Source of the DNA: an uncultured Maribacter sp.
GTDB taxonomy: Bacteria > Bacteroidota > Bacteroidia > Flavobacteriales > Flavobacteriaceae
Length of the DNA stretch: 64,000 nt
Direction of reading: 5' to 3'
Assembly: GCF_947500985.1 (NCBI RefSeq)
Contig: NZ_CANMTX010000003.1
Location: forward strand, 62,001 to 126,000
The position numbers were made by a program, and so were the translations under genes. The notes below the pieces were generated by a model that was not told where the DNA came from, ran no database searches, and saw nothing but the letters and a program-made list of their open reading frames with translations. This document shows positions 30,260 to 49,996 of the stretch, piece by piece. Numbering within the stretch: position 1 is the stretch's first letter; every line of letters starts with the position of its first letter.

Positions 30260-30645
30260 ACGCCCAACGACGTGCTTCAAAATATGTTTGTTCATCCCTG
30301 TACTTTAGCAGTGTAAAACAAATATTATGAAATCAATTATTCTTTTAACCGCTCTTTTCTTCTCTACTTTCTTAGTACAAGCACAAGCTAACAACGAGAA
30401 TGTTTCTTTAGAGATCGAAACTATACAAATAGAGATGGTTCAAACAATTGAAAGTAATGATATCATTGTTCCAACAATCGAAACTGAAAACACAATGGAA
30501 GTTGCAAGATTGTACAAGAACAAAAACAACAGAGTAATCAAGGCTTTAAAATTCTCAACAAAATTAAATAGAGCTAAACTTTCTTAATACAATTTTAAAT
30601 ATCCTTTTCGCCCCAAATCGAGACCTACCCATTTCTTACCAAAAC
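30236..30645 (+). repeat. Tandem duplication, copy 1
   Basis: Left copy of a unit of about 410 bp that recurs at 30857-31267, in direct orientation and 621 bp away. It covers the upstream dyad, the complete small secreted protein gene and about 60 bp of 3' sequence (ATCCTTTTCGCCCCAAATC in both). Upstream 60 bp and the signal peptide region are almost identical; divergence rises towards the unit ends. Confidence 0.9.
30327..30587 (+). CDS. Small secreted protein with basic C-terminal motif, member 1
   Basis: An 86-residue exported protein I do not recognise from any described family. Residues 1-20 form a signal peptide (cleavage near LVQAQ-AN). The middle (about 22-57) is acidic and Thr/Ile-rich. 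The last 28 residues are basic and carry the motif ARLYKNKNNRVIKALKF, shared with four other genes in this window (30948, 42565, 48688, 49409). It has no cysteine, lipobox or membrane anchor, so it is expected in the periplasm or outside. It differs from its tandem copy at 10 of 86 residues, which shows it is conserved as protein. Function unknown. Confidence 0.82.
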   Translation: MKSIILLTALFFSTFLVQAQANNENVSLEIETIQIEMVQTIESNDIIVPTIETENTMEVARLYKNKNNRVIKALKFSTKLNRAKLS

Positions 30646-30856
30646 TTACTATTAAATTCAATCTCAAAAATCAAGTTCAAGCTCAAAATTCAAAAATCAT
30701 TCTCAAGTCAAAATGACCATTCAACCGTATATCATATATTTCTGTAATAGTTAATTTCGTTATAATTTAAAAGCAGACAACATCAATACTTACGGTTAAT
30801 GAGCGCACTATTAAATTCTTGGTCTGCCTCCTATAAATTTAATAACCGAACCTAAA

Positions 30857-31267
30857 TTACCATTCGTCTATAGATAAATGACGCCCAACGACGAGCGGTA
30901 AAATATGTTTGTTCATCCCTGTACTTTAGCAGTGTAAAACAAATATTATGAAATCAATTATTTTTTTAACCGCTCTTTTCTTCTCTACTTTCTTAGTACA
31001 AGCGCAAGCTAACAACGAGAATGCTTCTTTAGAGATCGAAACTATACAAATAGAGCTGGTTCAAACAATTGAAAGTAATGATATCGTTGTTCCAACAATC
31101 GAAACTGAAAACACAATAGAAGTTGCTAGATTATACAAGAACAAAAACAACAGAGTAATAAAGGCTTTAGAATTCACAACAAAAGTGAGCAACGCTAAAC
31201 TTTCTTAATACAATTTCAAATATCCTTTTCGCCCCAAATCTATACCTACCCCGTTTCTTTCCAAAAC
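30857..31267 (+). repeat. Tandem duplication, copy 2
   Basis: Right copy of the 410-bp unit at 30236. It retains the CATTCGTCTATAGATAAATG element and the 60-bp leader before the start codon, and its homology ends shortly after the gene, around TTTCCAAAAC. The 210 bp between the copies are not repeated and contain no gene. Confidence 0.9.
30948..31208 (+). CDS. Small secreted protein with basic C-terminal motif, member 2
   Basis: Tandem paralogue of the gene at 30327: 86 residues, 76 identical. Changes are concentrated at the C-terminal end (K75E, S77T, L80V, N81S, R82N), while the core motif ARLYKNKNNRVIKAL is unchanged. Signal peptide and acidic middle are retained. Most substitutions are conservative (I/V, M/L, S/T), as expected for a protein under selection after duplication and not a decaying copy. 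Same unknown role as member 1; having two copies under near-identical leaders may simply raise dosage. Confidence 0.82.
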   Translation: MKSIIFLTALFFSTFLVQAQANNENASLEIETIQIELVQTIESNDIVVPTIETENTIEVARLYKNKNNRVIKALEFTTKVSNAKLS

Positions 31268-31340
31268 CTATTTTTTTATTGATTACAATTCTAAGTTCAA
31301 CCACTATCTTTACTTTTTAAATCCATTGAAAAAGTAAATC

Positions 31341-31835
31341 GTGTTCCGTTTTATATCCTTCATTAAATTTATACTTACTTCTACCAATCAACATGGGGTT
31401 CATTCACCTTTTGTTTATGATTACATTACCAAATGTCTTTACAAGAAAAAGCAACTTAAGCTTCCGACAACCCTAAAGGTGCTTATTAAAAGTATTACCT
31501 ATTTTAAATACGATTCTATATGTTTAATAGGAGATTATAAAACATCCGAAGAAAAAATAAAACAACATTTCCCAACTATTTCAATTACAGAAAATAATGC
31601 CGACATTACCGTTTGCAACATATCTGACCTTAGTGATACTAATTTAGATATCAACAATTTATCTAATGATTGCATGCTACTCTTAGATGGTATACACACC
31701 AGTAAAAAAAACTTTAAAACCTGGAAACATCTTACAGAATTAAAGCACGTTCGTGTTTCTATAGATATGTTTTATTGCGGAGCCCTATTTTTTAGGAAAG
31801 AACAAGTAAAGGAACATTTTAAAATACGGATATAA
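31341..31835 (+). CDS. Methyltransferase-like protein, apparently shortened
   Basis: A 164-residue protein starting at GTG 31341. Its start (FIKFILTSTNQHGVHSPFVYDYITKC) and its end (VSIDMFYCGALFFRKEQVKEHFKIR) look like the two ends of a Flavobacteriaceae SAM-dependent methyltransferase-like family that I recall as about 230-240 residues long. The middle, where the SAM-binding glycine loop should be, is much reduced: no ExGxxxG motif is seen. The frame is open, so this is either a degenerated gene or a family member that lost catalysis. The family assignment is from memory and should be treated as tentative. Confidence 0.55.
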   Translation: MFRFISFIKFILTSTNQHGVHSPFVYDYITKCLYKKKQLKLPTTLKVLIKSITYFKYDSICLIGDYKTSEEKIKQHFPTISITENNADITVCNISDLSDTNLDINNLSNDCMLLLDGIHTSKKNFKTWKHLTELKHVRVSIDMFYCGALFFRKEQVKEHFKIRI

Positions 31836-31866
31836 ACCAGTAATTTTAGACTAAAGCAAATTTTTA

Positions 31867-32013
31867 ATGAGCAGTAATACTATTTATATTACCCTGGGTA
31901 TTGTTTTCGCTATTTACTTAGCCATTCGCATTACTAGTAAAGGTAAATCTAGCGAGCGAAAATCAAGAAAGTTCATGGGAGATTATGAACGTAAAGACAA
32001 GAAAGAGAATTAA
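31867..32013 (+). CDS. Tiny single-span membrane protein (48 residues)
   Basis: A short gene starting at ATG 31867 and ending at TAA 32013. The product begins MSSNTIYITLGIVFAIYLAI, one clear membrane helix, followed by a strongly charged, Lys/Arg/Glu-rich cytoplasmic-type tail ending KDKKEN. The frame fills the gap between the methyltransferase-like gene (31 bp upstream) and cobalamin adenosyltransferase. Codon use looks like that of its neighbours. I do not recognise the family. The hydrophobic-then-basic layout makes chance coding unlikely, but only conservation could prove it. Confidence 0.55.
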   Translation: MSSNTIYITLGIVFAIYLAIRITSKGKSSERKSRKFMGDYERKDKKEN

Positions 32014-32092
32014 TTGTTCAAAGTTTTCACTTTAATAATTCTCACTATTTATTATTAAATAACCTACACCATTACTTTCTACAATTTATAAA

Positions 32093-32668
32093 ATGAAAAT
32101 ATATACCAAAACAGGAGATGACGGCACTACCGGACTTTTTGGAGGAACACGTGTACCTAAACATCATATTCGTATTGATAGCTATGGTACCGTAGATGAA
32201 TTGAATTCGTGGCTAGGTCTTATTAGAGATCAAGACATCTCCCCTATTTATAAGCAACAACTTACATCCATTCAAGAGCATTTATTTGCTGTAGGCGCAA
32301 TTTTAGCTACAGATCCAGAAAAAGAAATACTCAAAAACGGTCAAGAGCGATTAAAAATAACAAAGGTAGGTACTACTGAAATCAATTTTTTAGAACAGGT
32401 TATAGACGAAATGGATAGTCAATTACCACCTATGACCCATTTTATACTTCCGGGTGGTCATACAACAGTGTCATACTGTCATATTGCCCGTACTGTTTGT
32501 AGAAGAGCCGAACGAATTTCAACTTTATTATTTCAAACAGAGCCATTTGACAAAAATGTGTTATCTTTTATCAATAGGCTTTCAGATTATCTTTTTGTAT
32601 TGGCACGAAAATTGTCTTATGATTTACAGGCGGATGAAATAAAATGGATTCCTAAAAAAAAGGACTAA
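32093..32668 (+). CDS. Cob(I)alamin adenosyltransferase, PduO type
   Basis: Transfers the adenosyl group of ATP to cob(I)alamin, giving coenzyme B12. The N-terminal ATP-binding block YTKTGDDGTTGLFGGTRVPK (4-23), the RIDSYGTVDELNSWLG segment and the C-terminal CRRAERISTLLF plus NRLSDYLFVLAR are diagnostic of the PduO/ATR family; 191 residues is a full-length single domain. Adenosylcobalamin is needed by methylmalonyl-CoA mutase, whose chaperone GTPase MeaB is encoded at 56080, although the mutase itself is not in the window. No cobalamin riboswitch is visible upstream. Confidence 0.95.
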   Translation: MKIYTKTGDDGTTGLFGGTRVPKHHIRIDSYGTVDELNSWLGLIRDQDISPIYKQQLTSIQEHLFAVGAILATDPEKEILKNGQERLKITKVGTTEINFLEQVIDEMDSQLPPMTHFILPGGHTTVSYCHIARTVCRRAERISTLLFQTEPFDKNVLSFINRLSDYLFVLARKLSYDLQADEIKWIPKKKD

Positions 32669-32746
32669 TAATTCTGTAATTTATTCGTTATCAATAAACA
32701 AATGCAAAAAAAGCACGAGATAAATATGAAATTTATTATTAATTTC

Positions 32747-32776
32747 TTTGCTGTCTCAATTTAAAAATTACTTTTG
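32747..32776 (+). promoter_or_regulatory. Promoter of the DUF2795 gene
   Basis: TTTG (32747-32750), an 18-bp spacer and TACTTTTG (32769-32776) closely match the flavobacterial TTTG/TAnnTTTG consensus. The expected transcript start near 32783 leaves a leader of about 20 bases before the ATG at 32803. Confidence 0.6.
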
Positions 32777-32802
32777 CAAAAAATTAAAATTAAACTATTA
32801 CT

Positions 32803-33027
32803 ATGTATTGGACATTAGAATTAGCATCTTATTTAAGTGATGCACCTTGGCCGGCAAGTAAAGATGAGTTAATAGATTACTCCATCAGAACTGGAGCCCC
32901 TCTTGAAGTCGTAGAAAATTTACAATCTATGGAAGAAGAAGGTGGCGAAATATATGAATCTATCGAAGAGATTTGGCCTGACTATCCAACGGAAGAAGAC
33001 TACCTCTGGAACGAGGACGAATATTAA
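32803..33027 (+). CDS. DUF2795-like small acidic protein
   Basis: A 74-residue acidic cytoplasmic protein. It resembles the DUF2795 family, common in Bacteroidota: MYWTLELASYLSDAPWPASKDELIDYSIRTGAPLEVVENLQSM-type sequence followed by an acidic tail with the motif IWPDYPTEEDY. It has its own promoter and terminator and is thus a monocistronic unit between cobalamin adenosyltransferase and secA. No function is established. Confidence 0.82.
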   Translation: MYWTLELASYLSDAPWPASKDELIDYSIRTGAPLEVVENLQSMEEEGGEIYESIEEIWPDYPTEEDYLWNEDEY

Positions 33028-33050
33028 TATTCGATATCATAATAACTACA

Positions 33051-33079
33051 AAAAAGTCTCTTCGGAGGCTTTTTTTTTA
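33051..33079 (+). terminator. Rho-independent terminator after the DUF2795 gene
   Basis: A short stem AGTCTC/GAGGCT closed by a TTCG tetraloop, preceded by A5 and followed by nine T. It begins 24 bp after the stop codon. Confidence 0.85.
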
Positions 33080-33243
33080 TGTAATTTTGGCAGGTTATTA
33101 GGTTAAACTGTCCAAATATCAAGACTGGAATACCTTTTGCTCTTAAACAGCATCGATTATAATTGTCGAATATAAAATATTTTGAAAGCTATTCTTACTA
33201 GAATAATAGTCAGAAAAGCTTCAATTCTAATAGTTTAAAATAT

Positions 33244-36200
33244 ATGAGTTTCATTAATTCCATCCTAAAGGCATTCGTTGGTGATAAATCACAAAAAGAT
33301 GTAAAGGAATTACAGCCTTTAGTAGACCAAATAAAGTCATTCGAATCGAAGTTAGAATCCCTTAGTCACGATGAACTTAGGCAGAAAACAATAGAGTTCA
33401 AGAAGGCTATTCAAGAATCTATCAAAGAGAAAACAGATCAAATAAGTACTTTAGAAGAAGAGGTAAAGAACTCTACAGATATCGACAAAAACGAAGATCT
33501 TTACACAGAAATAGATAGATTAAAAGAAGAATCTTATACTATTTCTGAAGAGACTTTAAATAAAATACTTCCTGAAGCTTTTGCTGTTGTGAAGGAAACT
33601 GCAAAGCGTTTTGCAAATAATGAAACTTTAGAAGTGACAGCTTCTGAATATGACAGAACGTTGTCAGGTTCTAAAGAATATGTCACTCTTGAAGGTGCCA
33701 ATGCTATTTGGAAAAACTCTTGGGATGCCGCAGGTAAAGAGGTTACTTGGGATATGGTACATTATGATGTACAACTTATTGGTGGTATTGCCATGCACCA
33801 AGGTAAAATTGCAGAGATGCATACTGGTGAAGGTAAAACCCTTGTTGCTACCCTACCTTTATATTTAAATGCTTTAAGCGGTAATGGTGCACACTTAGTA
33901 ACCGTTAATGATTACTTAGCAAAAAGGGATAGTGCTTGGATGGCACCTATATTTCAATTTCACGGACTTTCTGTAGATTGTATCGATTACCACAGACCAA
34001 ATTCTGATGGTAGAAGAGCAGCCTACAATGCCGATATTACTTACGGTACCAATAATGAATTCGGTTTTGATTACCTGAGGGATAATATGGCGCATACGCC
34101 AAAAGATTTGGTACAACGCCCTCATAATTATGCCATGGTCGATGAGGTCGATTCAGTTTTGGTCGATGACGCTCGTACACCATTAATTATATCTGGCCCA
34201 GTACCAGAAGGTGATCGTCATGAGTTTAATGAACTAAAACCAAAGGTTGACGAAATTGTAAGAAAGCAGCGCCAGCATTTAACTGGTGTTTTGGCAGAAG
34301 CCAAAAAATTAATCGCAGAAGGTGATACAAAAGAAGGTGGTTTCCTTTTACTTCGCGTATACCGTGGGTTACCTAAAAATAAAGCATTAATAAAATTCTT
34401 AAGTGAAGAGGGAGTAAAACAATTGCTTCAAAAAACAGAGAATTATTACATGCAAGACAACAACAGGGAAATGCCAGTTGTTGATGAAGATTTATTGTTT
34501 GTAATTGATGAAAAGAACAACCAAATAGAATTGACCGATAAAGGGGTTAATTATATTTCTGGAGAAAACGATAAAGATTTCTTCGTGATGCCAGATATTG
34601 GTGGAGAGATTGCCAAAATTGAAAATCAAAATCTTGAAATTGAAAAAGAAGCTGAACTTAAAGAAGAGCTTTTTAAAGATTTCACTATTAAAAGTGAACG
34701 TATACATACCATGAGCCAATTATTAAAGGCTTACACCCTATTCGAAAAGGATACGGAATATGTGGTAATGGAGAATAAAGTAATGATTGTTGATGAGCAG
34801 ACCGGTCGTATTATGGACGGTCGTAGATACTCTGACGGTTTACACCAAGCAATTGAAGCAAAAGAGAATGTAAAGATCGAAGCATTAACACAAACTTTTG
34901 CAACGGTTACATTACAGAACTACTTTAGAATGTACAGCAAACTTGCTGGTATGACAGGTACTGCTGTTACCGAAGCTGGTGAATTCTGGGAAATCTACAA
35001 GTTAGATGTAATGGAAATTCCAACGAACAGACCTATTGCTAGAGAAGATAAAAATGATCTTATCTACAAAACAAAAAGAGAAAAATACAATGCTATTATT
35101 GAGGAAGTAACCAAAATAAGTCAATCAGGCAGACCTGTATTGATTGGTACAACCTCTGTAGAAATATCAGAATTACTATCTAAATTATTGAGTGTACGTA
35201 AAGTCCCTCATAATGTACTGAACGCGAAACTTCACAAGAAAGAAGCGGATGTAGTTGCCGAGGCCGGTAATGCAGGTATTGTAACTATTGCAACCAACAT
35301 GGCTGGTCGTGGTACCGATATTAAATTGTCTGACGCTGTTAAGAAAGCAGGCGGACTAGCAATTATAGGTACAGAAAGACATGATTCTCGTCGTGTAGAT
35401 AGACAGTTAAGAGGTCGTTCTGGTCGTCAAGGAGATCCAGGAAGCTCTCAATTCTATGTTTCGTTAGAAGATAACCTAATGCGTTTATTCGGTTCTGATA
35501 GGGTTGCTAAGATGATGGATAAAATGGGCTTAGAAGATGGTGAAGTTATTCAGCATAGCATGATGACCAAATCTATTGAACGTGCTCAGAAAAAAGTGGA
35601 AGAAAACAACTTTGGTGTACGTAAACGTCTTTTAGAATATGATGATGTTATGAACGCGCAACGTGAAGTTGTGTATAAAAGAAGACGTCATGCATTACAA
35701 GGCGAGCGTTTAAAGCTTGATATTGCCAATATGGTCTATGATACCTGTGAGGTCATCGTAGAAAGCAATAAAGCTGCAAGTGATTTTAAGAATTTAGAAT
35801 TTGAATTGATCAAATACTTCTCAATTACATCACCTGTAGATGAAGCTGAGTTTGGTAAAATGACAGCTCAAGAAATTACCGGTAAAATTTATAAGGCTGC
35901 ATACGAGTATTATAATGATAAAATGGAGCGTAATGCTGCAGCGGCTTTCCCTGTAATAAAAAAGGTTCATGAAGATAATGCCAATAACTTTGAGCGTATT
36001 ATAGTTCCTTTTACTGACGGAATTAAAAGCTTGAATGTAGTAACTAACCTTCAAGAAGCATATGATAGTAACGGTAAGCAATTGGTTACCGACTTTGAGA
36101 AAAATATCTCATTGGCTATTATAGATGATTCGTGGAAAACACATCTTCGTAAAATGGATGAGTTGAAGCAATCGGTTCAATTAGCTGTTCACGAGCAAAA

Positions 36201-36603
36201 AGATCCTTTATTAATTTATAAGTTCGAAGCATTTGAACTTTTTAAGTCGATGATTGAACAAGTAAATAAAGATGTTGTCTCTTTCTTATTTAAAGGAGAA
36301 CTACCTTCTGAAAATCCTAATGCGATTCAAGAAGAAAGAAACGTTCAACCCAAAGAAAACTTACAGACGTCAAAAGAGGAAATTCCTAATAGTGATGAAT
36401 TAGCGGCACGTAGTAGAGCGGTTAGTCAAAATCAGGCAGAACGACCAGCGGTTACCGAAACCATTACTAGAGAACAACCAAAAATTGGAAGAAACGAACG
36501 CGTAACCATTAAAAATGTAATGAGCGGCGAGAGTAAAACAGTAAAGTTCAAACAAGCTGAGCCACTTTTACAAAACGGTTCATGGGTGTTAACTCAAGAT
36601 TAA
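33244..36603 (+). CDS. secA: Preprotein translocase ATPase SecA
   Basis: The motor of the Sec export pathway, 1119 residues, typical of Bacteroidota SecA, which carry insertions relative to the ~900-residue E. coli protein. Walker A is GEGKT (195-199), the DEAD-type motif appears as [20 protein letters not shown], and the second motor domain has [13 protein letters not shown] and [14 protein letters not shown]. Extra sequence lies between about 60-105 and in NBD1. The C-terminus is a charged linker then [23 protein letters not shown]; the usual Cys-rich zinc finger (CxCxSGxxYxxCHG) is absent. Alone in its transcription unit. Confidence 0.97.
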
Positions 36604-36916
36604 ATTAGATAATATTATTAGTATTAAAAAGGCATCCAATAGGATGCCTTTTTAATTTACTCTTTCTAACAAGCTATAAATAAACATGATAGAAAAGAAT
36701 GTAAATATTTATTCTATTTTATGATAATGCAGAGAAAACTACAATTAACAATTGATTTAATATTTTTAACCATTATTTAGGTAAAAAAAATATGTAATTC
36801 AGAAAAATATTACTGGTTTTTATCATACTAAAGCAGAAAATACTAGTATAATGATAAAAACATAATTAGATTTACATTACGTAATTCGTATATTTTATAG
36901 TACCTAAATAATATCT
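36604..36916. other. Intergenic region upstream of the histidine kinase
   Basis: About 310 bp, very AT-rich. It holds the secA terminator at 36624-36655 and an imperfect inverted repeat, GTTTTTATCAT (36816-36826) with ATGATAAAAAC (36851-36861), extended by ACTA/TAGT. I see no coding frame and no exact promoter match. Confidence 0.45.
36624..36655. terminator. Rho-independent terminator after secA
   Basis: A perfect 14-bp stem (36624-36637 with 36642-36655) with a four-base loop and terminal T-run; core GGCATCC/GGATGCC. It begins 20 bp after the stop codon. Confidence 0.9.
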
Positions 36917-38137
36917 ATGCCCGGATTTACCATTGACAAAGAACGTCTTCAGGATAAAACCAAACTTTTTTTAAGGGTAAATTATGCCACAAGCATCATC
37001 TCCATACTTTTTGGAGCTTTATGTTATTTCATATTGAACATAACCCAAGTAATACCTTTTTTACTCGTTGGCTTTGCAATATTGAATATTATAAATATTT
37101 TATATTTTAAAGTTCATAAAAACATAATACCAACTTTTAATTTTTCATCTATAATAGGTTTAATTACCGCTGTAATTGTTACCGTTTATAGTGGCGGTAT
37201 TAATAGTCCATTTATATTCATGATTCCGTTAATCGCCTTTGGTGGATTCATAAATAGCACTAGGTACGGTAGGGTATATTTTAATATAATAACTGTACTG
37301 ATCCTTCTAGTTTTCACACAGTCCATACCTGAATTACGTATTACAGAAAATTTAGTTCCAGAAGAATCAAGTTCAGTATTTAGTCTTGTATCAATACTGT
37401 TTGCTGTATTCATATTAGGAAACACCTTAGGTAAAACACTTCTAAAAACCTATAATGCCATGTACAGTTCCAAAAAAGAATTGTCAAATCAAGTGCATGA
37501 AAAAGAAAATCTATTAAAAGAAGTACATCATAGGGTAAAAAACAATTTACAAACCGTTTCTAGCTTATTGAGCCTACAATCTAGAAATATAGAGACAGGA
37601 CCAATGAAAGGGCTTTTAAAGAGTACTCAAAACAGAGTAATCGCCATGGCTATGGTACATGAAATGCTATATATGCGAAATGATATAAGCCACATTGAAT
37701 ACAAATCTTACGTACAAGATTTAGGCGAATATTTAATTCGTTCCATAAAAGGGAATGATAATAACGTAGATTTAATAATTGATATTCCTGATATAAAATT
37801 AGGCATAGATACCGCAATCCCATTAGGTCTCTTAATTAATGAAACTTTGACCAATGCCTTAAAATATGGTATTGAAAGTGATAAAGAAGGAGCAATAAGT
37901 ATTAAGTTACAAAAAAATCTGGAGCAAGAAAATTGCTATATTTTAGAGATTGGTGATAATGGAATCGGCTTTCCAGAAACCATTAATTACAAAAACACTA
38001 AATCTTTAGGTTTAAAATTAATACATAATCTTACCAGACAATTAAGAGGAACAATACAACGTGATGATGCTAAAAAAGGAACTAACTACATTATACAGTT
38101 TCAAGAAATAAAGCAACAATTATCTCCAACAGTTTAA
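36917..38137 (+). CDS. Membrane sensor histidine kinase (HisKA_2 type)
   Basis: A 406-residue kinase. The N-terminal ~175 residues contain about five or six membrane helices with little periplasmic loop, so the signal is probably sensed within or near the membrane. The dimerisation/phosphoacceptor helix is of the HisKA_2 type (EVHHRVKNNLQTVSSLL, His at 204/205), followed by an HATPase domain with NETLTNALKYG (N-box) and GDNGIGFP (G1). This subclass usually signals through stand-alone receivers. No regulator gene is adjacent; the nearest is the receiver-only protein at 63235. An inverted repeat lies upstream at 36816-36861. Confidence 0.92.
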   Translation: MPGFTIDKERLQDKTKLFLRVNYATSIISILFGALCYFILNITQVIPFLLVGFAILNIINILYFKVHKNIIPTFNFSSIIGLITAVIVTVYSGGINSPFIFMIPLIAFGGFINSTRYGRVYFNIITVLILLVFTQSIPELRITENLVPEESSSVFSLVSILFAVFILGNTLGKTLLKTYNAMYSSKKELSNQVHEKENLLKEVHHRVKNNLQTVSSLLSLQSRNIETGPMKGLLKSTQNRVIAMAMVHEMLYMRNDISHIEYKSYVQDLGEYLIRSIKGNDNNVDLIIDIPDIKLGIDTAIPLGLLINETLTNALKYGIESDKEGAISIKLQKNLEQENCYILEIGDNGIGFPETINYKNTKSLGLKLIHNLTRQLRGTIQRDDAKKGTNYIIQFQEIKQQLSPTV

Positions 38138-38250
38138 ATTAATTAATCAATTTTTATCACTATCATAATAATAAAAGCGAAGCATAGTAATGCTAGCTAA
38201 TCTTTATAGTAATACCTATATTTAAGCGACTAACATTCAAACCACGCTTA

Positions 38251-40770: not shown

Positions 40771-40804
40771 CATCAATTCACTAATAATTAATTCATACGG
40801 CAAA

Positions 40805-42397: not shown

Positions 42398-42513
42398 AAC
42401 TTACGTTTGTTTACCGGCACTTTAATTGGACGCACTTTTTTTTCATTTTTTGTAGTAAAAGCTATAGTTGCAATAACAATAAGTGCTGGTATTATAATTG
42501 AAAGTAACATCAT
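42394..42513 (-). CDS. Tiny single-span membrane protein (39 residues)
   Basis: A short minus-strand frame starting at ATG 42513 (an ATG pair at 42510/42513) and ending at TAA 42394, overlapping the convergent amidohydrolase stop by 4 bp. The product begins MMLLSIIIPALIVIATIAF, a single hydrophobic helix, then a basic tail with KVRPIKVPVNKRKF. It follows the small secreted protein gene at 42565 by 51 bp on the same strand and could share its transcript. I do not recognise it; the helix-plus-basic-tail pattern is the main support. Confidence 0.45.
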   Translation of the reverse strand: MMLLSIIIPALIVIATIAFTTKNEKKVRPIKVPVNKRKF

Positions 42514-42564
42514 AATTAAAAATTTATAAAGTGCTTAATTGCACCTTACTGTATAAAGCAAAGA

Positions 42565-42822
42565 TTATGCCAACTTACTGTATGACTTCTTGGTAATAAA
42601 TGCTAATTCTTTGTTAACCCTAGCATTTTTGTATCTATACAAACGTGCTATTGACGTTTCAGCAGTAATTGTAATCGATTTCTTGTTGCTAATATCGTCC
42701 CGGCTATCAACCAAAACAATACCCATTTCAGTAGCGTTAACTTTATCATCTGTTTGGGGAGTTTGTGCTAATGCTAATGCGCCAGCGAAAATTATTATTA
42801 CTAAGGTTACAAGTGCTTTCAT
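42565..42822 (-). CDS. Small secreted protein with basic C-terminal motif, member 3
   Basis: An 85-residue exported protein, third member of the family seen at 30327. Signal peptide of about 19 residues (cleaved near LALA-QT), an acidic variable middle (PQTDDKVNATEMG... through SRDDISNKK), then the basic motif ARLYRYKNARVNKELAF and the ending SKLA. It shares almost no identity with members 1 and 2 in the middle, only in the signal region and C-terminus. The upstream region contains strong dyads (see 42907-42985). Flanked by a small membrane protein frame downstream and the helicase gene upstream. Function unknown. Confidence 0.78.
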   Translation of the reverse strand: MKALVTLVIIIFAGALALAQTPQTDDKVNATEMGIVLVDSRDDISNKKSITITAETSIARLYRYKNARVNKELAFITKKSYSKLA

Positions 42823-42906
42823 ATCGTAATGTTGAACAATGTAAAAGTACTTTGAGGTATACGATTAAGCATCTTGACCTCGCTAAACTGCTGTAATTTT
42901 CGGCTA

Positions 42907-42985
42907 GTGTAAAAATCTGAGATGAATCGACAAAAAGTGTCGACGAACGGTTTTTGACCTAAAAACACCACACCGACTCGGTGTG
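42907..42985 (-). promoter_or_regulatory. Dyad-rich upstream region of member 3
   Basis: Contains an inverted repeat TCGAC (42927-42931)/GTCGA (42939-42943) and a perfect one, CACACCGA (42969-42976)/TCGGTGTG (42978-42985). Blocks GTGTAAAA (from 42907) and CCTAAAAACACC (to 42969) recur in the same order upstream of member 5 near 49751-49793. On the minus strand ACCGTTCGT (42943-42951) resembles the ACCATTCGT in the dyads before members 1 and 2. Confidence 0.45.
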
Positions 42986-43096
42986 CATTTAATCGATAAT
43001 TTAAATATGTGAAGTTTAAAATACCTCTAAAATTGGGGTCCAAAAGACTAACCTATATGTAGGAAATAGAATGAATTAAAATGAAGCAAATGAAAC

Positions 43097-44452
43097 TTAC
43101 TTTTTGTGTCTTCCACGTTTACCGTAGTTCTTATCACCACGAGTTTTCGATTTCGTATATTTCTTTTTAATGATACGCTTATAAGAGCCACCTTGGTTTT
43201 CCTTTTTATTCTTGTCAGACTTTTCATGAAAACTAGCTCCACGTTCATCTTCATTAATATTCAAAGGATTTTCGTGCTCCCTATGTTTAGGTTGCTCGTC
43301 GAAAGTAAGTTGAGTTGAGATTTCAACATCATTAGGTAATGGTAGTAAATTGACTTTATGCGACATTAATTCTTCAATGGCATCTTTAGCCTCTTCTTCT
43401 TGCTCAGTAAATAATAGAATAGAAGTGCCTTCTTTCTCTGCCCTACCCGTTCTACCAATTCGGTGCATGTAGTTTTCAGGATATGTCGGAGTATCAAAAT
43501 TTATAACGTGAGATATCTCTTGTAAATCTAATCCACGAGCCATAACGTCGGTAGTTACCAAAATACGATTCTTACCCTCGTCGAATTGATTAATAGAACG
43601 TAGTCTATAGTTTTGTGTTTTGTTGGAGTGAATGATACAGATTTCTTCACTGTAAAACTCAGCCAATTCTTTAAACAGTAAATCGGCACTTCGCTTACTA
43701 GAAACAAATACCAATACCTTATGGTACATTTCTTGGTCCTGTAATAAGCTTACCAATAAATTTACTTTCGTATAAAAATTAGGCGTAGCGCACCCGTATT
43801 GGGTAATATTTTCTAGTGGAGTTCCACTTACGGCAATGGCAATTTTCTGAACACCAGTAAAGAAATCGGTTATGAACAATTCAATATCATCGGTCATCGT
43901 AGCCGAAAACATAATATTCTGTCTCTTTTGAGGTAATAGCTCAAAAATATTAACAAGCTGAAACCTAAAGCCTAAGTCCAGCATTACATCGACCTCATCA
44001 ATTACAAGTTTCTTCACTTGTTTTAATTGTACAGCCTTTGTAAGAATCAAGTCATACAATCTTGCAGGCGTTGCCACCAGAACATCGGTACCTAATGCCA
44101 AAGCCTCTTTTTGGCGCAACATACTTTTACCTCCAAATACACCCAGAACTCGAATGCCTGCATATTTTGCTAGTTTTTCTGCCTCTTCGACTACTTGTAC
44201 CACTAGCTCACGCGTAGGCACAAGAATAATTACCTTAGGATGTATATCTTTAGAAAAACTGAGCGTATTTAAAATAGGAAGCAGATAGGCAAATGTTTTA
44301 CCAGTACCCGTTTGGGCTATACCTACTATATCGTTACCACTCATTACAATAGGAAAAGCTTTCTCTTGAATTGGAGTTGTGTTTTCAAAACCTAAATCAG
44401 CCAAGGCTTTCTCTAAGTTTCTAGAAATCTTCAAATCGGTAAACAACGCCAT
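43097..44452 (-). CDS. DEAD-box family RNA helicase
   Basis: A 451-residue superfamily 2 RNA helicase. The Q-motif (GFENTTPIQEKAFP) precedes motif I AQTGTGKT (46-53); motif II reads DEVD (152-155) in place of DEAD; motif III SAT and motif VI HRIGRTGRAEKEG are normal. The C-terminal 50 residues are very basic (KRIIKKKYTKSKTRGDKNYGKRGRHKK-like) and should bind RNA. Start taken as the ATG at 44452; a GTG three codons earlier is also open. A TAGCTTTG element lies at 44478-44485. Likely roles are ribosome assembly or RNA decay at low temperature, inferred from the family. Confidence 0.93.
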   Translation of the reverse strand: MALFTDLKISRNLEKALADLGFENTTPIQEKAFPIVMSGNDIVGIAQTGTGKTFAYLLPILNTLSFSKDIHPKVIILVPTRELVVQVVEEAEKLAKYAGIRVLGVFGGKSMLRQKEALALGTDVLVATPARLYDLILTKAVQLKQVKKLVIDEVDVMLDLGFRFQLVNIFELLPQKRQNIMFSATMTDDIELFITDFFTGVQKIAIAVSGTPLENITQYGCATPNFYTKVNLLVSLLQDQEMYHKVLVFVSSKRSADLLFKELAEFYSEEICIIHSNKTQNYRLRSINQFDEGKNRILVTTDVMARGLDLQEISHVINFDTPTYPENYMHRIGRTGRAEKEGTSILLFTEQEEEAKDAIEELMSHKVNLLPLPNDVEISTQLTFDEQPKHREHENPLNINEDERGASFHEKSDKNKKENQGGSYKRIIKKKYTKSKTRGDKNYGKRGRHKK

Positions 44453-44652
44453 AACAATCACTTTTGTAATTAAAGCGCAAAGCTATGCCGATTAGTTGAC
44501 AAATCACGAAAAGTGAGGCATTTATCGGTAATTAAGTCAAAAAATGACTTTTAAATCTAAAAGAGTAAAGAACATTTCCTTTACAAATGTCCTTATTAAT
44601 ATAGTTTACTTTTTAAATTAAAATCAATACTAAGTTTTAAAACTTAAAAGAA

Positions 44653-47205
44653 TTAACTCCCCTCTTTCCGTAACACCTGCAATGGCGGACTATTTAACAC
44701 TCCTCTACTATTCATTAATCCGATAGCTAAAACCAATAACGTAATGCCCGGCAAAACCACCAAAAACGGTATCCAAGAAGGAATAAAAGGTGTGTCGAAA
44801 ATAAAATACGCCAGTAAAAAACTACTCACTAAAGAAAGCAACACTCCTACTCCGCTACCTAAAACACCAAGAAATAAATATTCTAAAGCATTTATTTTTA
44901 AAATCTGTTTACTCTGGGCGCCAAGAGTTCTTAGCAAAACACTCTCACGAATTCGTTGGTATTTACTATTACGAACAGAACCTATTAAGACTATGATACC
45001 AGTAAGAATACTAAAGAATGCCATGAAGGATATAACCCATGAAATCTTATTTAAAATATTCTCGACCAAAGTAACCACTTGTCTCAAATCGATGATTGAG
45101 ACATTGGGAAATTTCTTCACAAGCTCTCGCTGCAGATCAGCTGAAGACTTTTTATCTGGTGCATTGGTGGTCAACACATGAAACTGTGGTGCATTTTCTA
45201 ACACTCCTTTAGGGAATACAATTGAAAAATTAAGTTGCATACGTGCCCAATCTACCTGGCGAATATTACCAACAACGGTAGTCATTAATTTACCCTGAAC
45301 ATTAAATAATAAGGTATCACCAATAGTTACCAAAGCATCATTTGCTACATTATCTGCCAGCGAAATAGGTATTACTTTAGCATTCGGAGCAACAGAAGGT
45401 ATCCACTCCCCTTCTAGTAACTTTTCAGAACCAATCATAGAATCTCTATAGGTTGTTCTAAACTCGTGGTTAAGAATCCATTTGTTCACTCGGGTAGTCG
45501 AATCTAATCGAATATCATTAACATCTCGATCTTTTATACGCTCTAAACGCATGGTTACAATCGGAATATTATCTATAACAGGAAGTCCCTTTGGCGTAAT
45601 TGTATTTGCTACAGCATCCCGTTGGTCTGTTTGTACATCAAATAATATCAAATTCGGACTCTCAGCACTCGCTTCGAACGAGGTTTTGGCAAGTAGAAAA
45701 TCTTTAGTGAAATATAAAGTACTTATTAAAAATGTACCAATCCCAATGGCTAAAATCAGTACTACTGTTTGATTATTAGGCCTGTATAAGTTTAAGAGAC
45801 TCTGTCTTGCTGCAAAGCTCCAAGATTTTGGAAAATAACGTTTTATCAATCGCATAAATAGAATTGACACTCCCGCTAAAATTGAGAAGCTTATTAATAT
45901 ACCTGCAACGAAACTTAATGCGAACTCCCATCTTCCCAATAACCAAAAAGCGAATAACAATACAAAAAGTACAATGGCAACCACAACCCATATTTGATAA
46001 GGTCTTGCCTTTTTACTCGTATCTTCTTGTACTCGTAATACCTGTAAGGGCGATACAAACCATGTATTTACTAACGGCGACAAAGCAAATAAAACAGACA
46101 TACAAACTCCCAGTAATAAGCCGACAAATATTGCTTGAAAAGAAGTAGAAATTTCTACCTGAAAGGGTAAAAACTCTTGTAGTATAAGCGGAAATGTCTG
46201 TTGTAACAACAAACCTATTACCGTACCTATGAGTCCGCCCAACAAGCCCATTCCTGCAATTTGAATAAGATAGATTAAAAACGTTTGCTTTCGTGTAGCG
46301 CCCAAACATTTAAGAACCGCTACCGCTTTTAGTTTCTCTTTAATATAAATATGTACAGAGCTGGCAATACCAACGCACCCTAAAAGAAGTGCAATAAACG
46401 CCACCAAATTTAAGAATCGACCAACGTTTTCATACCTACGACCTAGTCGCTCACTGGTATCTGTATGGGTATCCATATCAGCATTTTCAGCATCTAATAA
46501 CGGATCTACTTTTTTGCTCAGTGCTTCTAAATCTGCTTTATCATCATTGAAATAGTAATTGTACCCCAAACGGCTACCACGTTGCAGGAGGCCACTTTCT
46601 TTCATAAAACGAAATGGCACAATTATAGGTGGTGCTGCTGTCGCACCGATACCAGTACTACCAGGTGCTGTGATCAACGACCCAACAATGGCAAAAGTGG
46701 TTGTACCCAACTTTACACTGTCACCTGGTTTCAAATTATATTGAAGCATTGCAGTGGCATCAACTAATGCACCACCTTTTTCTAAATATTCTTTTGCAGC
46801 TGAGGCAGGTTCCGTTTCTAACTCGCCATAAAAAGGAAAATTACCTTCAATAGCACGTACCTGTACCAATTTTGTAGCAAGGCTTTTGGGGAATGCTGCC
46901 ATCGAGGCAAAATTGACCTCTCTAGCATCATAACCACCTAAAGAATCCATCAATTCAGTAACACGTTCATTGGCAGGCTGATTGCTATCAATAAGAAAAT
47001 CGGCACCCATTAGTGCTTTTGATTGCAAACCAATATTATCTTTAAGATTATCGCTAAAAGATTGAATAGATACCACTGCTGCTATACCTAGAATAATAGA
47101 TGCCATGAACAATAACAGTCGTTTACCGCTAGCTTTGCCATCTCGCCAAGCAATTTTCAACAACCAATTAAATCCGGCTTTTGATGTTCTTTGTGTTAGA
47201 TTCAA
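44653..47205 (-). CDS. ABC transporter permease, YbbP/FtsX-like
   Basis: An 850-residue integral membrane protein with two FtsX-type modules and about ten membrane segments: an N-terminal helix plus periplasmic region, a central block of helices (NLVAFIALLLGCVGIASSVHIYIKEK), a second block, and a C-terminal set (ILTGIIVLIGSVRNSKYQRIRESVLLRTLGA). This is the YbbP-type exporter/mechanotransmission permease. Its start overlaps the ATPase gene's stop by 4 bp (ATGA). Together with that ATPase and the divergent TesA-like esterase it mirrors the E. coli tesA-ybbA-ybbP arrangement. Substrate unknown, possibly hydrophobic or lipid-like. Confidence 0.9.
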   Translation of the reverse strand: MNLTQRTSKAGFNWLLKIAWRDGKASGKRLLLFMASIILGIAAVVSIQSFSDNLKDNIGLQSKALMGADFLIDSNQPANERVTELMDSLGGYDAREVNFASMAAFPKSLATKLVQVRAIEGNFPFYGELETEPASAAKEYLEKGGALVDATAMLQYNLKPGDSVKLGTTTFAIVGSLITAPGSTGIGATAAPPIIVPFRFMKESGLLQRGSRLGYNYYFNDDKADLEALSKKVDPLLDAENADMDTHTDTSERLGRRYENVGRFLNLVAFIALLLGCVGIASSVHIYIKEKLKAVAVLKCLGATRKQTFLIYLIQIAGMGLLGGLIGTVIGLLLQQTFPLILQEFLPFQVEISTSFQAIFVGLLLGVCMSVLFALSPLVNTWFVSPLQVLRVQEDTSKKARPYQIWVVVAIVLFVLLFAFWLLGRWEFALSFVAGILISFSILAGVSILFMRLIKRYFPKSWSFAARQSLLNLYRPNNQTVVLILAIGIGTFLISTLYFTKDFLLAKTSFEASAESPNLILFDVQTDQRDAVANTITPKGLPVIDNIPIVTMRLERIKDRDVNDIRLDSTTRVNKWILNHEFRTTYRDSMIGSEKLLEGEWIPSVAPNAKVIPISLADNVANDALVTIGDTLLFNVQGKLMTTVVGNIRQVDWARMQLNFSIVFPKGVLENAPQFHVLTTNAPDKKSSADLQRELVKKFPNVSIIDLRQVVTLVENILNKISWVISFMAFFSILTGIIVLIGSVRNSKYQRIRESVLLRTLGAQSKQILKINALEYLFLGVLGSGVGVLLSLVSSFLLAYFIFDTPFIPSWIPFLVVLPGITLLVLAIGLMNSRGVLNSPPLQVLRKEGS

Positions 47206-47891
47206 GATATAGAAGTGGTTTCGTTGATTACTATTTTACCACCCTTAAGTCGTAATACATGTTTATTCAGATTAGCCAATTCTAGATCATGGGTAACAAT
47301 AACCAATGTAGTGCCCATTTCTTTATTAAGGTCAAATAATAATTTGATGACCTTTTCGCCAGTTTCCTCATCTAAATTACCCGTTGGCTCATCGGCAAAA
47401 AGTATAGAAGGCTTATTAGAAAACGCTCGTGCCAAAGCAACCCTTTGCTGTTCACCACCAGATAATTGAGATGGGTAATGATCATGACGATCACCCAAAC
47501 CAACTTTAGAAAGCAACTCCATAGCATCTTTAGAAGCATTAGGGGCTCCCTGTAATTCTAAAGGTACACTTACATTCTCTAAAGCTGTTAATGTAGGTAG
47601 TAATTGAAAGTCTTGAAAAATAAATCCAACTTTTTCATTTCTTAGTAACGCTCTTTGATCTTCATTAAGACCACTTAAATCTTCACCACAAAGTTCTATT
47701 ACTCCCTCGTTGATTTCATCTAATCCGGCGCAGAGCCCTAATAATGTAGTTTTTCCACTACCTGAGGGACCAACAATTGCAAAAGTATCGCCTTCTTCAA
47801 TAGAAAAAGAAATATCATCAATTACTGTCAAATTCTTAGATCCGCTTGAATACGTTTTCTTTAGATTACGTACGTTTAATATCTTTGTCAT
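47202..47891 (-). CDS. ABC transporter ATPase, YbbA/LolD-like
   Basis: A 229-residue ABC ATPase of the MacB/LolD group: Walker A GPSGSGKTT (41-49), signature LSGGEQQRVALARAF, Walker B ILFADEPTGNLDEETG and the H-loop VTHD. It is coupled by an ATGA overlap to the YbbP-like permease downstream and should form a complex with it. The esterase gene diverges 62 bp upstream. LolD itself would pair with LolC/E; the 850-residue permease here makes YbbA the better name. Confidence 0.92.
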   Translation of the reverse strand: MTKILNVRNLKKTYSSGSKNLTVIDDISFSIEEGDTFAIVGPSGSGKTTLLGLCAGLDEINEGVIELCGEDLSGLNEDQRALLRNEKVGFIFQDFQLLPTLTALENVSVPLELQGAPNASKDAMELLSKVGLGDRHDHYPSQLSGGEQQRVALARAFSNKPSILFADEPTGNLDEETGEKVIKLLFDLNKEMGTTLVIVTHDLELANLNKHVLRLKGGKIVINETTSIS

Positions 47892-47953
47892 AAATCATTT
47901 TGGTACAAGAGAACAAAATAAAGAAATGATTTGGAATCTAATCAGTTAAGATT

Positions 47954-48691
47954 ATGTTGAAAGTATTAAAGTTTCGTTATTTTTTATTGGTGTTGTTGTT
48001 CGTTGGATGTGGAGAAACTCCAGAAAAGAAACCATATGACACCCAAACAGAAGCTGCAAGTAGTGTTGAAAAGGAAGATATTTATGCGGATGACAAATTA
48101 ATATTGTTCTATGGAAACAGTCTTACCGCTGCGTATGGCTTAGATACGAAGGAAGGATTCCCTAATAGAATTCAACAACGTTTAGATTCTTTAGGATTAG
48201 ATTATAAGGTAATCAATTCCGGATTGAGTGGTGAAACTACCTCTGGAGGATTAAATCGTTTAGACTGGGTACTGAATCAGCCCGTAGATATTTTTGTTTT
48301 AGAATTAGGTGCGAATGACGGATTGCGTGGAATACCCATTACAGAGTCTATGAATAATTTACAGCAGATGATTGATATGGTGAAGGATAAAAATTCTGAA
48401 ACTCAAATAATATTGGCAGGTATGCAGATACCGCCAAATATGGGTGCAGATTATGCATCTCAATTTAAGATGATGTATCCTGCCTTGGCAAAATCCAATG
48501 ATATACTATTGATTCCGTTTTTATTGGAGGGGGTTGCCGGTATTCCGAAATTGAATTTAGAAGATGGAATTCACCCAACTGCAGAAGGACAGCGAATAGT
48601 AACCGGAAATGTTTGGGAAATTTTAAAAACTATTGTGTTACCTAAAGGGGGAACAGAGGTAACCAAGGAACTTGTAGAAGAATTAAACTAG
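47954..48691 (+). CDS. SGNH-hydrolase lipoprotein (TesA/arylesterase-like)
   Basis: A 245-residue GDSL/SGNH esterase anchored as a lipoprotein (LLFVGC, Cys19). Block I is YGNSLTAAYG, with Asn55 in place of the usual Asp of GDSL; the nucleophile Ser56 is kept. Block III reads LGANDGLRG, and the catalytic Asp-His pair is in DGIHPTAEGQ. E. coli TesA, a periplasmic thioesterase/lysophospholipase, is the best-known relative. Encoded divergently from the YbbA/YbbP-like transporter, which suggests action on the same lipid-like substrate; this is inference from conserved order. Confidence 0.9.
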   Translation: MLKVLKFRYFLLVLLFVGCGETPEKKPYDTQTEAASSVEKEDIYADDKLILFYGNSLTAAYGLDTKEGFPNRIQQRLDSLGLDYKVINSGLSGETTSGGLNRLDWVLNQPVDIFVLELGANDGLRGIPITESMNNLQQMIDMVKDKNSETQIILAGMQIPPNMGADYASQFKMMYPALAKSNDILLIPFLLEGVAGIPKLNLEDGIHPTAEGQRIVTGNVWEILKTIVLPKGGTEVTKELVEELN

Positions 48692-48927
48692 GCGAAATAA
48701 ACTGTTCGTACTCTTGCTTTAAAAAGTAAGGCTTGTTTAACTCGTGCATTTTTGACTTTGTAAAACCTTGCAGCTGTTTGAAAACCCTGAGCGTTTACGT
48801 CAGACTTTAATGCTACATCTGCCATGGGCATAACAATAGTCTGTACTTTCGTGTCTGGTGACTTCGATTGTGCTTGGGACTGGGTTCCCAAACAGATAAC
48901 AAGGAATAAAAAAATAATTGCACGCAT
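48688..48927 (-). CDS. Small secreted protein with basic C-terminal motif, member 4
   Basis: A 79-residue exported protein, the most divergent of the five. Signal peptide of about 19 residues (cleavage near SQA-QS), a middle with KVQTIVMPMADVALKSD, then the basic end ARFYKVKNARVKQALLF followed by KARVRTVYFA, which departs from the TK...KLA ending of the others. The KVQTIVM stretch aligns with KVETIEM of member 5. Its stop overlaps the end of the convergent esterase by 4 bp. The upstream 200 bp are packed with repeats (49046-49147). Function unknown. Confidence 0.75.
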   Translation of the reverse strand: MRAIIFLFLVICLGTQSQAQSKSPDTKVQTIVMPMADVALKSDVNAQGFQTAARFYKVKNARVKQALLFKARVRTVYFA

Positions 48928-49408
48928 AATTAAGTAGGTAAATTTGGTTTATAGATAACCCTCTACTTGTAAGTAAACGTATTTCGAATTCGACAAGAGG
49001 TATGGTTTTTACGATGAAAAGTTTACTTTTCGATGTATCACTTCTTTTTGTAGTCCTTTTTCCTACAAAATAATCTTCCACTAGACCCCGAATTTGTGCA
49101 GTTCATCGAATTAATGTGTTTTTTCCTACAAAATATGGTTTTGTGGGTTGGAGGGACTACAGTAGGGAGTTTAAAAATTAGAAGTGTGAATATAGGATTG
49201 AGAGAATAGCTTTTAGAAAATAGATTAGGGCTTTTGGTTGATGGTTGTTAGACATAAAATCAATTTAGCTTTGCTAAATCTATTTTTGAAAATACTTGTC
49301 ATCAATCAATTCTCTAACTTCTGTTTTCTTTTTTCTTTTTTTAACAACTGATATGTACCATGTACTTAATGCTCTCTACCTTATACTTAATATTTATTTC
49401 AAAAAAAA
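48928..49408. other. Gene-free region between members 4 and 5
   Basis: About 480 bp with no credible gene. The half next to member 4 is highly structured: AAGTAAAC (48971-48978) and GTTTACTT (49021-49028) form an inverted repeat, TCGAATTCGA (48984-48993) is a 10-bp palindrome, and the TTTTGTAG repeats follow at 49046-49147. The remainder up to member 5 is AT-rich with nothing recognisable. Confidence 0.5.
49046..49147. repeat. Cluster of TTTTGTAG / CTACAAAA repeats
   Basis: Two inverted pairs in direct repetition: TTTTGTAG (49046-49053) with CTACAAAA (49063-49070), and CCTACAAAA (49125-49133) with TTTTGTGGG (49139-49147, one mismatch). A 16-bp sequence TTTTTCCTACAAAATA occurs exactly at 49057-49072 and 49120-49135, 63 bp apart, about six helical turns. 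It is 120-220 bp upstream of the member 4 start codon. Confidence 0.6.
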
Positions 49409-49645
49409 CTAAGCCATTTTAGGCTTGTTCGCTTTAGTTAAAAAGTTTAAATCTCTTTTGATTCTAGAATTTTTGAATTTGTATAATCTAGCTACTTCTG
49501 TAGTAGTGTTAGCTTCTACTTCATATGTTGTTTCAGTAACGATGCTCATCTCAATAGTTTCAACCTTTACTTCTTCAGTAGAGTTCTGTGCTTGAGCGGT
49601 GAAGCTTAAAAAGATGATGAAGATTGTTGCTATTATTGTTTTCAT
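49409..49645 (-). CDS. Small secreted protein with basic C-terminal motif, member 5
   Basis: A 78-residue exported protein. Signal peptide of about 18-20 residues (TAQAQ-NS), an acidic middle rich in Glu, Thr and Val (STEEVKVETIEMSIVTETT), and the basic end ARLYKFKNSRIKRDLNF followed by LTKANKPKMA. It is closest in layout to members 1 and 2, including the phrase EVARLYK. Upstream, blocks GTGTAAAA and CCTCTAAAAACACC at 49751-49793 match the region before member 3. Not adjacent to any gene of known function. Role unknown. Confidence 0.8.
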   Translation of the reverse strand: MKTIIATIFIIFLSFTAQAQNSTEEVKVETIEMSIVTETTYEVEANTTTEVARLYKFKNSRIKRDLNFLTKANKPKMA

Positions 49646-49996
49646 GACTTGCGTTTGTTACAATAATAGAACGCAGCAGGCCTTGTTTTACTAGGTGATG
49701 AATCGCTGAAAAACCCCTAATTCTCGTTACTTGACACAACTTCAGATAAAGTGTAAAATCACATCGATAAACGACAACACCTCTAAAAACACCTTACCGA
49801 TAATTGATGTATTTAAACGAAACCAGAAGAGAAAGTACAAGCTCAAGTAATCAATTTCAATTTCAAAATATAGAAAAGAGAGTAAAGAATATAGATTTCA
49901 GTTGTTGGTTGTTGAAATAAAAAATCTATTCTATATATTCTCGTGACTAAATTTCAAATACTACATACTTCGTACTTTTTACCATACCCCATCTCT
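49646..49996. other. Upstream region of member 5 and gap before the M23 gene
   Basis: About 350 bp without a gene. The segment 49751-49793 holds GTGTAAAA, GATAAACGACAA and CCTCTAAAAACACC in the same order as blocks at 42907-42969, about 105 bp before the member 5 start. The rest is AT-rich and shows no hairpin or reading frame of note. Confidence 0.45.

Follow-up and report, generated by a model that had tools for sequence, protein, structure and literature searches.

What are the short, apparently secreted proteins that recur along one stretch of a marine bacterial genome, and why are their basic tails kept so much more strictly than the rest? The stretch, hereafter the window, comprises 64,000 nucleotides from an uncultured Maribacter sp. 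(assembly GCF_947500985.1, contig NZ_CANMTX010000003.1, positions 62,001 to 126,000) and carries five genes whose products share a signal peptide, a variable middle and a basic C-terminal tail, here called ARLYK-tail proteins. The comparisons below suggest that, in Flavobacteriaceae, a LytTR-type two-component circuit may have these Sec-exported proteins as its output, a reading that we regard as evenly poised between right and wrong. The combination of a strongly conserved tail, a gene switch and viral versions points to an unrecognised form of cell-envelope signalling that is exploited by phages.

All five open reading frames (ORFs) were found where the original prediction had placed them, with lengths of 78–86 residues and with the motif AR[LF]Y[KR]xKNxR[VI]xxxLxF in each (Table 1). 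When hidden Markov models (HMMs) were built from the mature parts only and each window gene was left out in turn (for 30327 and 30948 the near-twin was also removed), a search of the window's six-frame ORFs recovered the omitted gene with E values from 9e-13 to 7e-8, and the best unrelated frame reached E 0.2 or worse. Judged by this profile test, the five are real and homologous genes, far beyond chance. Wider comparisons rest on 159 members, 143 of them distinct, extracted from the window and 74 loci drawn from 80 of 175 confirmed stretches; the loci overlap in places (L125, L130), so that one or two of the 159 genes are counted twice. In this larger set the motif as first written is exact in only 52 members, and a relaxed form is present in 147. 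The description of the proteins as unrelated outside signal peptide and motif also needs correction, as 30327 and 30948 are 88% identical over their full length and most relatives keep a KVxTIxM stretch behind the signal peptide (K27 in 81, V28 in 84 and M33 in 79 of 97 alignment rows).

The signal peptide ends in A19 (96 of 97 rows), followed by Q20 (84 of 97). In Bacteroidetes, substrates of signal peptidase I carry Gln right after the cut, the Q-rule, as set out in the portions of two papers used here (PMC10653852; PMC5837995), and the family's signal peptides probably satisfy this rule, with a predicted cut between A19 and Q20. At the other end, the tail extends to the stop codon, with Ala as the last residue in 89 of 97 rows, and has a mean charge of +9.3. 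The middle, predicted to be acidic, usually is (mean charge -3.9 in 153 of the 159 members, leaving out six without a recognisable tail start), but this is not universal: charges range from -9 to +5, and that of member 4 (48688..48927) is 0. Pooled over 666 non-independent pairs of 72–97% nucleotide identity, the ratio of nonsynonymous to synonymous substitution rates (dN/dS) comes to 0.11 in the tail, compared with 0.21 in the signal peptide and 0.24 in the middle. These values, all far below 1, indicate that the family is under purifying selection, and the tail is its most constrained part, in agreement with the proposal that the motif is what selection keeps; the leader in front of it is not simply disposable, as had been supposed. 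That the tail stays so constant from genus to genus points to a partner that is itself conserved, not to a diversifying code.

In a low-confidence AlphaFold2 model of member 5 (m76a01456d10a), the signal helix is followed by a disordered middle and by a helix at residues 49-72 in the basic tail, the only helix besides that of the signal, plus a 4-residue turn at the end. This layout and charge would also suit the precursor of a cationic antimicrobial or bacteriocin, with an acidic pro-part and a basic, helical mature part, and the helical moment is 0.37–0.48 in five of six tail strings computed (0.13 in the sixth, that of member 4). The moments are not clearly above those of shuffled strings, however, of which a fraction of 0.09–0.84 scored as well; in addition, phages that carry the tail (see below) would gain little from such a product and the tail is invariant between genera, and we consider this explanation very unlikely.

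The count of five members holds for the window but not for the source genome (4.25 Mb), which has seven secreted members and one leaderless paralogue in total. Two extra secreted members lie on contig C12 (the window is part of contig C3), and a 59-residue version on contig C2 keeps the tail without a signal peptide. Among leaderless paralogues, the one at G001:C1:2340831-2340998 has an in-frame TAG stop and is likely a decaying copy. All 35 other sampled genomes of the genus gave 2–10 matches each at E 0.01. The family is not confined to Maribacter: at the same threshold 76 of 397 genomes sampled from Flavobacteriaceae are positive, and they represent 47 of 237 genera. Neither outcome named as refuting the original prediction, a family restricted to its genus or dN/dS near 1, was thus obtained. 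Of the 76 positives, 71 reach E 3.1e-8 or better, and the remaining five (E between 0.001 and 0.0081) may be chance. Relatives in named records come from Maribacter, Zobellia, Flagellimonas, Allomuricauda, Muriicola, Ulvibacterium, Eudoraea, Kriegella, Pseudozobellia, Aurantibacter and uncultured Flavobacteriaceae. Within the order, 44 of 296 genomes pass E 0.001, 21 of them from other families; these 21 match only the front of the profile (up to position 63 of 79), are therefore counted as signal-peptide matches, and were rejected as members. Three other-family genomes matched at E 0.001–0.004 in the genus-level survey. No convincing bacterial member outside Flavobacteriaceae was found in the order-level sample or among the other-family genomes of the genus-level survey, and plasmid sequences gave no match at E 0.1.

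The case for common control rests on the DNA in front of these genes. About 190 base pairs (bp) upstream of the start codons are alike between genera, and their information peaks mark an array of six half-sites: one strand carries two, spaced by 20 bp, and the other carries four at intervals of 20–21 bp, with 33 bp separating the two sets. An operator model of this array was trained on 40 sequences, those of members 3 and 5 among them; it gave 141 matches in 1.33 Mb (window plus 74 loci), of which roughly a hundred lie outside the training set and are more independent, though many are close copies. Every one of the 141 sits 22–70 bp upstream of a family start, so that 141 of 159 family genes have a match; of the other 18, five begin at or near a contig end and 13, including three window genes, are divergent paralogues. 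Across the source genome the four strong matches are all upstream of family genes, the next reaching E 5e-4, and at E 0.001 the model finds sites in 22 of 23 genus genomes (source included) and in none of 14 other-family genomes. Single half-site pairs are less telling: in the 74 loci 162 pairs score at least 16, and 139 of these fall in the 220 bp that precede family genes, the remaining 23 being located elsewhere. In the window, no operator match was found upstream of member 1 or member 4, each of which has a weak half-site pair (9 and 5 of 500 shuffles as good, respectively), and the DNA upstream of member 2 resembles that of member 1, with a pair that is not significant (67 of 500).

Several further features of these upstream regions were noted. 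A structured-RNA leader was considered and rejected, as the RNAalifold consensus energy is -0.05 kcal/mol and shuffles fold about equally well (z +0.7 to -2.0, five sequences). Rfam gave no match at gathering score within the window, and in three relatives it gave two matches, one above gathering score, both away from the cassettes. Just 5' of the start, an inverted repeat with a stem of at least 6 occurs in 54% of 130 distinct upstream sequences versus 7% of shuffles; in the window (49646-49695) and its relatives the form of this short repeat is kept and its sequence is not. A weak operator-like match at C16:2435-2541 (L169; E 5e-4) of the source genome lies about 100 bp before a gene that we take to be PorP/SprF-like. 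Operator matches also fall at contig ends (G014:C6, G014:C22, G016:C11); family arrays seem to break assemblies, and thus family copy numbers are lower bounds.

The tail is not limited to bacteria. Among 50,697 phage records it was found in four groups of isolated flavobacterial phages, which make 28 records when duplicate RefSeq entries are counted: the Maribacter phages Colly and Molly (8 records, tblastn E 5e-9), Helsingorvirus (8), Callevirus (7) and Cbastvirus (5). Pairwise matches of the last three to bacterial members or to other phage groups are insignificant (E 0.2 or worse), so that their membership rests on the profile. Per record, the profile gave E 4.6e-14 for Colly and Molly, 2.5e-8 and 3.7e-8 for Callevirus, 6.2e-6 and 6.3e-6 for Cbastvirus and from 2.5e-7 to 6.1e-6 for Helsingorvirus, and it reached 6.4e-10 in one more viral sequence that encodes the tail, IMG/VR contig 3300002039_000011; because these values apply to single records chosen beforehand, Cbastvirus is the weakest case, and its ORF is without annotation. 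Colly gp6 retains the signal peptide, a KVEVIEM stretch and EVARLYKFKNSRIKKALNF, the Molly copy likewise has its signal peptide, and the Helsingorvirus version has signal peptide and tail with a very short middle. In Cellulophaga phage phiST (KC821604), an unannotated 71-residue ORF with signal peptide and tail (L273 1507-1722) lies between gp093 and gp094 and has identical counterparts in phi13:1 and phi19:2. The Colly and Molly genes are preceded by two half-sites (2014-2043 in Colly) that stand exactly 21 bp apart, with a score of 20.4, compared with 22.3 in the host (0 of 500 shuffles as good). Like pairs precede the Colly M10 metalloprotease gene gp9 (L280 3299-3328) and gp186 (120500-120529). 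For Molly, the part of its published description cited here lists no integrase (PMC8776804).

Two explanations other than a signalling circuit were considered. One is an envelope shield, in which the tail masks a site on the surface or inner membrane, so that phage copies would serve superinfection exclusion and host copies would guard against phages or cationic compounds. Signal peptide and tail occur together in three phage groups, two of them with a short middle, and many host duplicates are recent and sometimes identical, as this would lead one to expect; on the other hand, there is no receptor candidate, some phage forms are leaderless and arms-race diversification is not seen. We regard the shield as unlikely. 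An alternative possibility is that the tail binds nucleic acid or a cytoplasmic machine, with the leaderless forms active and the exported forms serving to remove or localise the tail. The strongly basic charge and the leaderless forms in bacteria and phages agree with this, as does a weak and insignificant match to chloroplast ribosomal protein L24, but the signal peptide is kept by the aligned members, and this explanation appears distinctly improbable.

The spacing of the half-sites suggests which class of regulator may read them. LytTR repeats are 9 bp long. For LytTR regulators, the usual distance between repeats is given as 12 bp, with 11 or 13 bp in some cases (PMC6193735). Spacings of 11–13 bp with 9-bp repeats give a period of 20–22 bp, which matches the array, and half-sites with a 20–21 bp period also have the direct repeats and 11–13 bp spacer of Agr/Com-type promoters. 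On contig C6 of the source genome, three half-sites 21 bp apart (C6:81694-81744, L287; scores 5.0, 12.9 and 9.0) lie between a LytTR gene (C6:81807-82508) and a TPR–HisKA_2 kinase gene (Pfam), and, once family cassettes were masked, a scan of 1.52 Mb at 16 spacings gave no other triple as strong. As a HisKA_2 kinase adjoins a LytTR regulator here, both are candidates for the circuit. A regulator encoded beside the family seems unlikely: among ORFs of at least 100 residues in the window and the 74 loci, a LytTR domain is present in only two loci (L127, L148), similar to one another, as a membrane protein between two family genes that does not form half of a kinase pair.

A candidate sensor lies closer to hand. 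The window encodes an orphan HisKA_2 kinase (Table 1) with a PilS-like six-transmembrane part that falls below that family's cut-off, and the family is often found in a syntenic stretch with genes for SecA, a kinase of this type, M14, an amidohydrolase, TesA, an FtsX-type ATP-binding cassette (ABC) transporter, M23 and MsrA; the order in locus L156, for example, is MsrA, family gene, kinase, SecA, and some loci place the family in other surroundings. Among the 397 genomes, kinase and family are both present in 62, the family only in 14, the kinase only in six and neither in 315. Six of the 14 family-only genomes were inspected, of which three do have the kinase beside SecA and three are without it within the stretch examined. 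Of the kinase-only genomes, one is cut by a contig end and in three the relative lies elsewhere. Distances were measured in 49 of the 62 genomes with both: the nearest listed member is no more than 7 kb from the kinase in 42 and no more than 20 kb away in 48. The other 13 genomes, for which no member was listed on the kinase contig, were left out, and this favours linkage. Three HisKA_2 kinase copies stand near the family cluster in Zobellia (L107, L108, L116, L124, L133) and Pseudozobellia (L146).

Table 1. Positions in the window of the family genes, the kinase and the upstream elements.
Feature	Position	Strand	Details
Family member 1	30327..30587	+	86 residues: signal peptide, acidic middle, basic tail ARLYKNKNNRVIKALKF
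Family member 2	30948..31208	+	Tandem copy; 88% identity to member 1
Family member 3	42565..42822	-	85 residues; tail ARLYRYKNARVNKELAF
Family member 4	48688..48927	-	79 residues; tail ARFYKVKNARVKQALLF
Family member 5	49409..49645	-	78 residues; top scorer among window members in family profiles
Orphan histidine kinase	36917..38137	+	HisKA_2 + HATPase_c (Pfam); candidate sensor for the proposed circuit
Operator array of member 5	49699..49822	-	94.1 bits, E 2e-28; six half-sites
Strongest half-site pair of member 5 array	49745-49774		Period 21 bp; score 22.3; 0/500 shuffles as good
Operator array of member 3	42879..42999	-	63.8 bits, E 5.6e-19
Half-site pair of member 3 array	42921-42950		Period 21 bp; score 18.0; 0/500 shuffles as good

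With a kinase of this kind nearby, the family could be a peptide pheromone, its exported tail being sensed by the six-transmembrane kinase in the same or neighbouring cells and inducing its own synthesis through a LytTR regulator. In its favour are the small size and apparent export of the proteins, the LytTR-like direct repeats at their promoters, the linkage to a kinase with such a sensor part and the phage-borne copies; genes for an FtsX-type ABC transporter and M14/M23 peptidases occur in the same stretch, with no sign of a part in handling the peptide. Known pheromones diversify, however, and this tail is nearly constant in dozens of genera; the leaderless forms, together with that near-invariance, argue against a classical pheromone, and the copy numbers of kinase and family do not follow one another. 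We therefore think a pheromone rather unlikely.

We return to the reading of the family as exported outputs of a LytTR-type two-component circuit. A typical gene forms a cassette: a phased half-site array lies upstream, and the product has a signal peptide probably cut between A19 and Q20, a flexible linker that is acidic in most members and a basic tail, most likely helical. Homology, this cassette layout, purifying selection, the operator, the phage copies and linkage to the kinase are evident from the sequences, whereas the identity of the regulator, secretion, the partner and the effect are inferred. When the circuit is switched on, the paralogues that bear the operator would be produced together and exported, and the basic tail would then dock on a conserved partner in the envelope or inner membrane. 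The proposal that the docked tail acts back on the HisKA_2/LytTR circuit or conveys its output, and that phages make the tail to reach the same partner during infection, is put forward more tentatively, as a step that we think has somewhat less in its favour than against it. Each particular function is given a lower likelihood than the general reading.

A number of observations weigh against this reading. The full operator is absent from three of the five window members (1, 2 and 4), and each of the 17 LytTR genes of the source genome lies at least about 31 kb from the nearest family gene. The triple on C6 is a post-hoc find in one genome, and one of its half-sites is weak (5.0). Kinase and family copy numbers are uncorrelated (Spearman -0.12, p 0.34, 62 genomes), two kinase-only genomes (G436, G313) have the kinase between SecA and MsrA with no detected member, and the co-occurrence of kinase and family may be confounded by common ancestry and a stable locus. 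Confidence in the structure model of member 5 is low, with a mean predicted local distance difference test score (pLDDT) of 65.5 and a predicted template modelling score (pTM) of 0.23. In the phages, Helsingorvirus, Callevirus and Cbastvirus have no significant half-site pair and the full operator model (nhmmer) has no match in the phage loci (best E 1.3); because like pairs also stand upstream of two other Colly genes, the Colly/Molly pair may be a phage promoter element instead of a host-type site controlling three phage units. Finally, leaderless versions occur in the source genome and 13 of 22 congeners searched, as well as in Callevirus and the IMG/VR contig (50 and 37 residues), and since they exist, a partner in the periplasm only is insufficient. 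Nor does a purely secreted signal, as contemplated in the original prediction, account for leaderless versions in host and phage. These forms suggest that the partner is reachable from the cytoplasm or that they are antagonists.

To our knowledge, exported-peptide signalling between cells or to the envelope is hardly known in Bacteroidota. A peptide signalling circuit of that phylum, in which a LytTR regulator and HisKA_2 kinases would work with several exported ARLYK-tail peptides, and which at least four phage lineages would have tapped through tail peptides of their own, one of them together with the host's 21-bp sites, is an improbable extension. Whatever its function, a conserved peptide cassette found in dozens of marine genera, with its own switch and with phage versions, offers concrete genes, DNA sites and phages for work with laboratory strains of Maribacter and Cellulophaga. 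It also illustrates how very short ORFs, including the unannotated one in phiST, can hide functions common to host and phage.

How does the family compare with what has been described? The original prediction knew of no description of it, and none was found in searches of the open-access literature directed at the family. The five window proteins all fall below Pfam and NCBIfam cut-offs. The 97 relatives, reported without family cut-offs, gave scattered matches (best E 1.5e-4, at most five members per family), and the PDB sequences gave nothing below E 0.66, the value of the L24 match; being scattered, these weak matches were taken as chance. The closest likeness in sequence is to PHROG 26162, phage proteins of unknown function with a profile of 59 positions, which share the basic tail: the profile matches the leaderless paralogue (E 1.6e-5), member 5 (E 5.2e-5) and one relative (E 3.1e-4), and significant matches are limited to the tail. 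Of the four window members scanned, members 4 and 1 gave no match at E 0.1 and member 3 reached E 0.068. Cargo of the type IX secretion system (T9SS) was rejected, as none of the 97 members matches a T9SS C-terminal domain of Pfam or NCBIfam at E 0.01; one matches the PorU N-terminal model (E 0.003).

Three known systems resemble the family in layout. SecM-type arrest peptides have a signal peptide, a loose middle and a conserved C-terminus, all of which the family shares, together with a nearby secA; this candidate was rejected because no gene lies regularly downstream on the same strand, hence there is no cis target (in locus L156, for example, the family gene is on the plus strand and the next gene, HisKA_2, on the minus strand). 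CpxP/Spy-type small periplasmic feedback proteins are likewise short, exported and, like the family, likely under two-component control, but the 97 members have no LTXXQ-type match at E 0.01 (Pfam) and a single predicted tail helix. The third comparison is with LytTR-controlled peptide systems such as Agr, Com and bacteriocin loci, as far as the cited part of their description goes (PMC6193735). Unlike these, the family has a Sec signal peptide, a candidate regulator that is unlinked, six half-sites instead of two, leaderless and phage forms, and a tail that is near-identical across genera where the mature Agr/Com peptide diversifies. It nevertheless shares with them a small exported protein, promoter direct repeats with LytTR-like spacing and a kinase with several transmembrane segments nearby.

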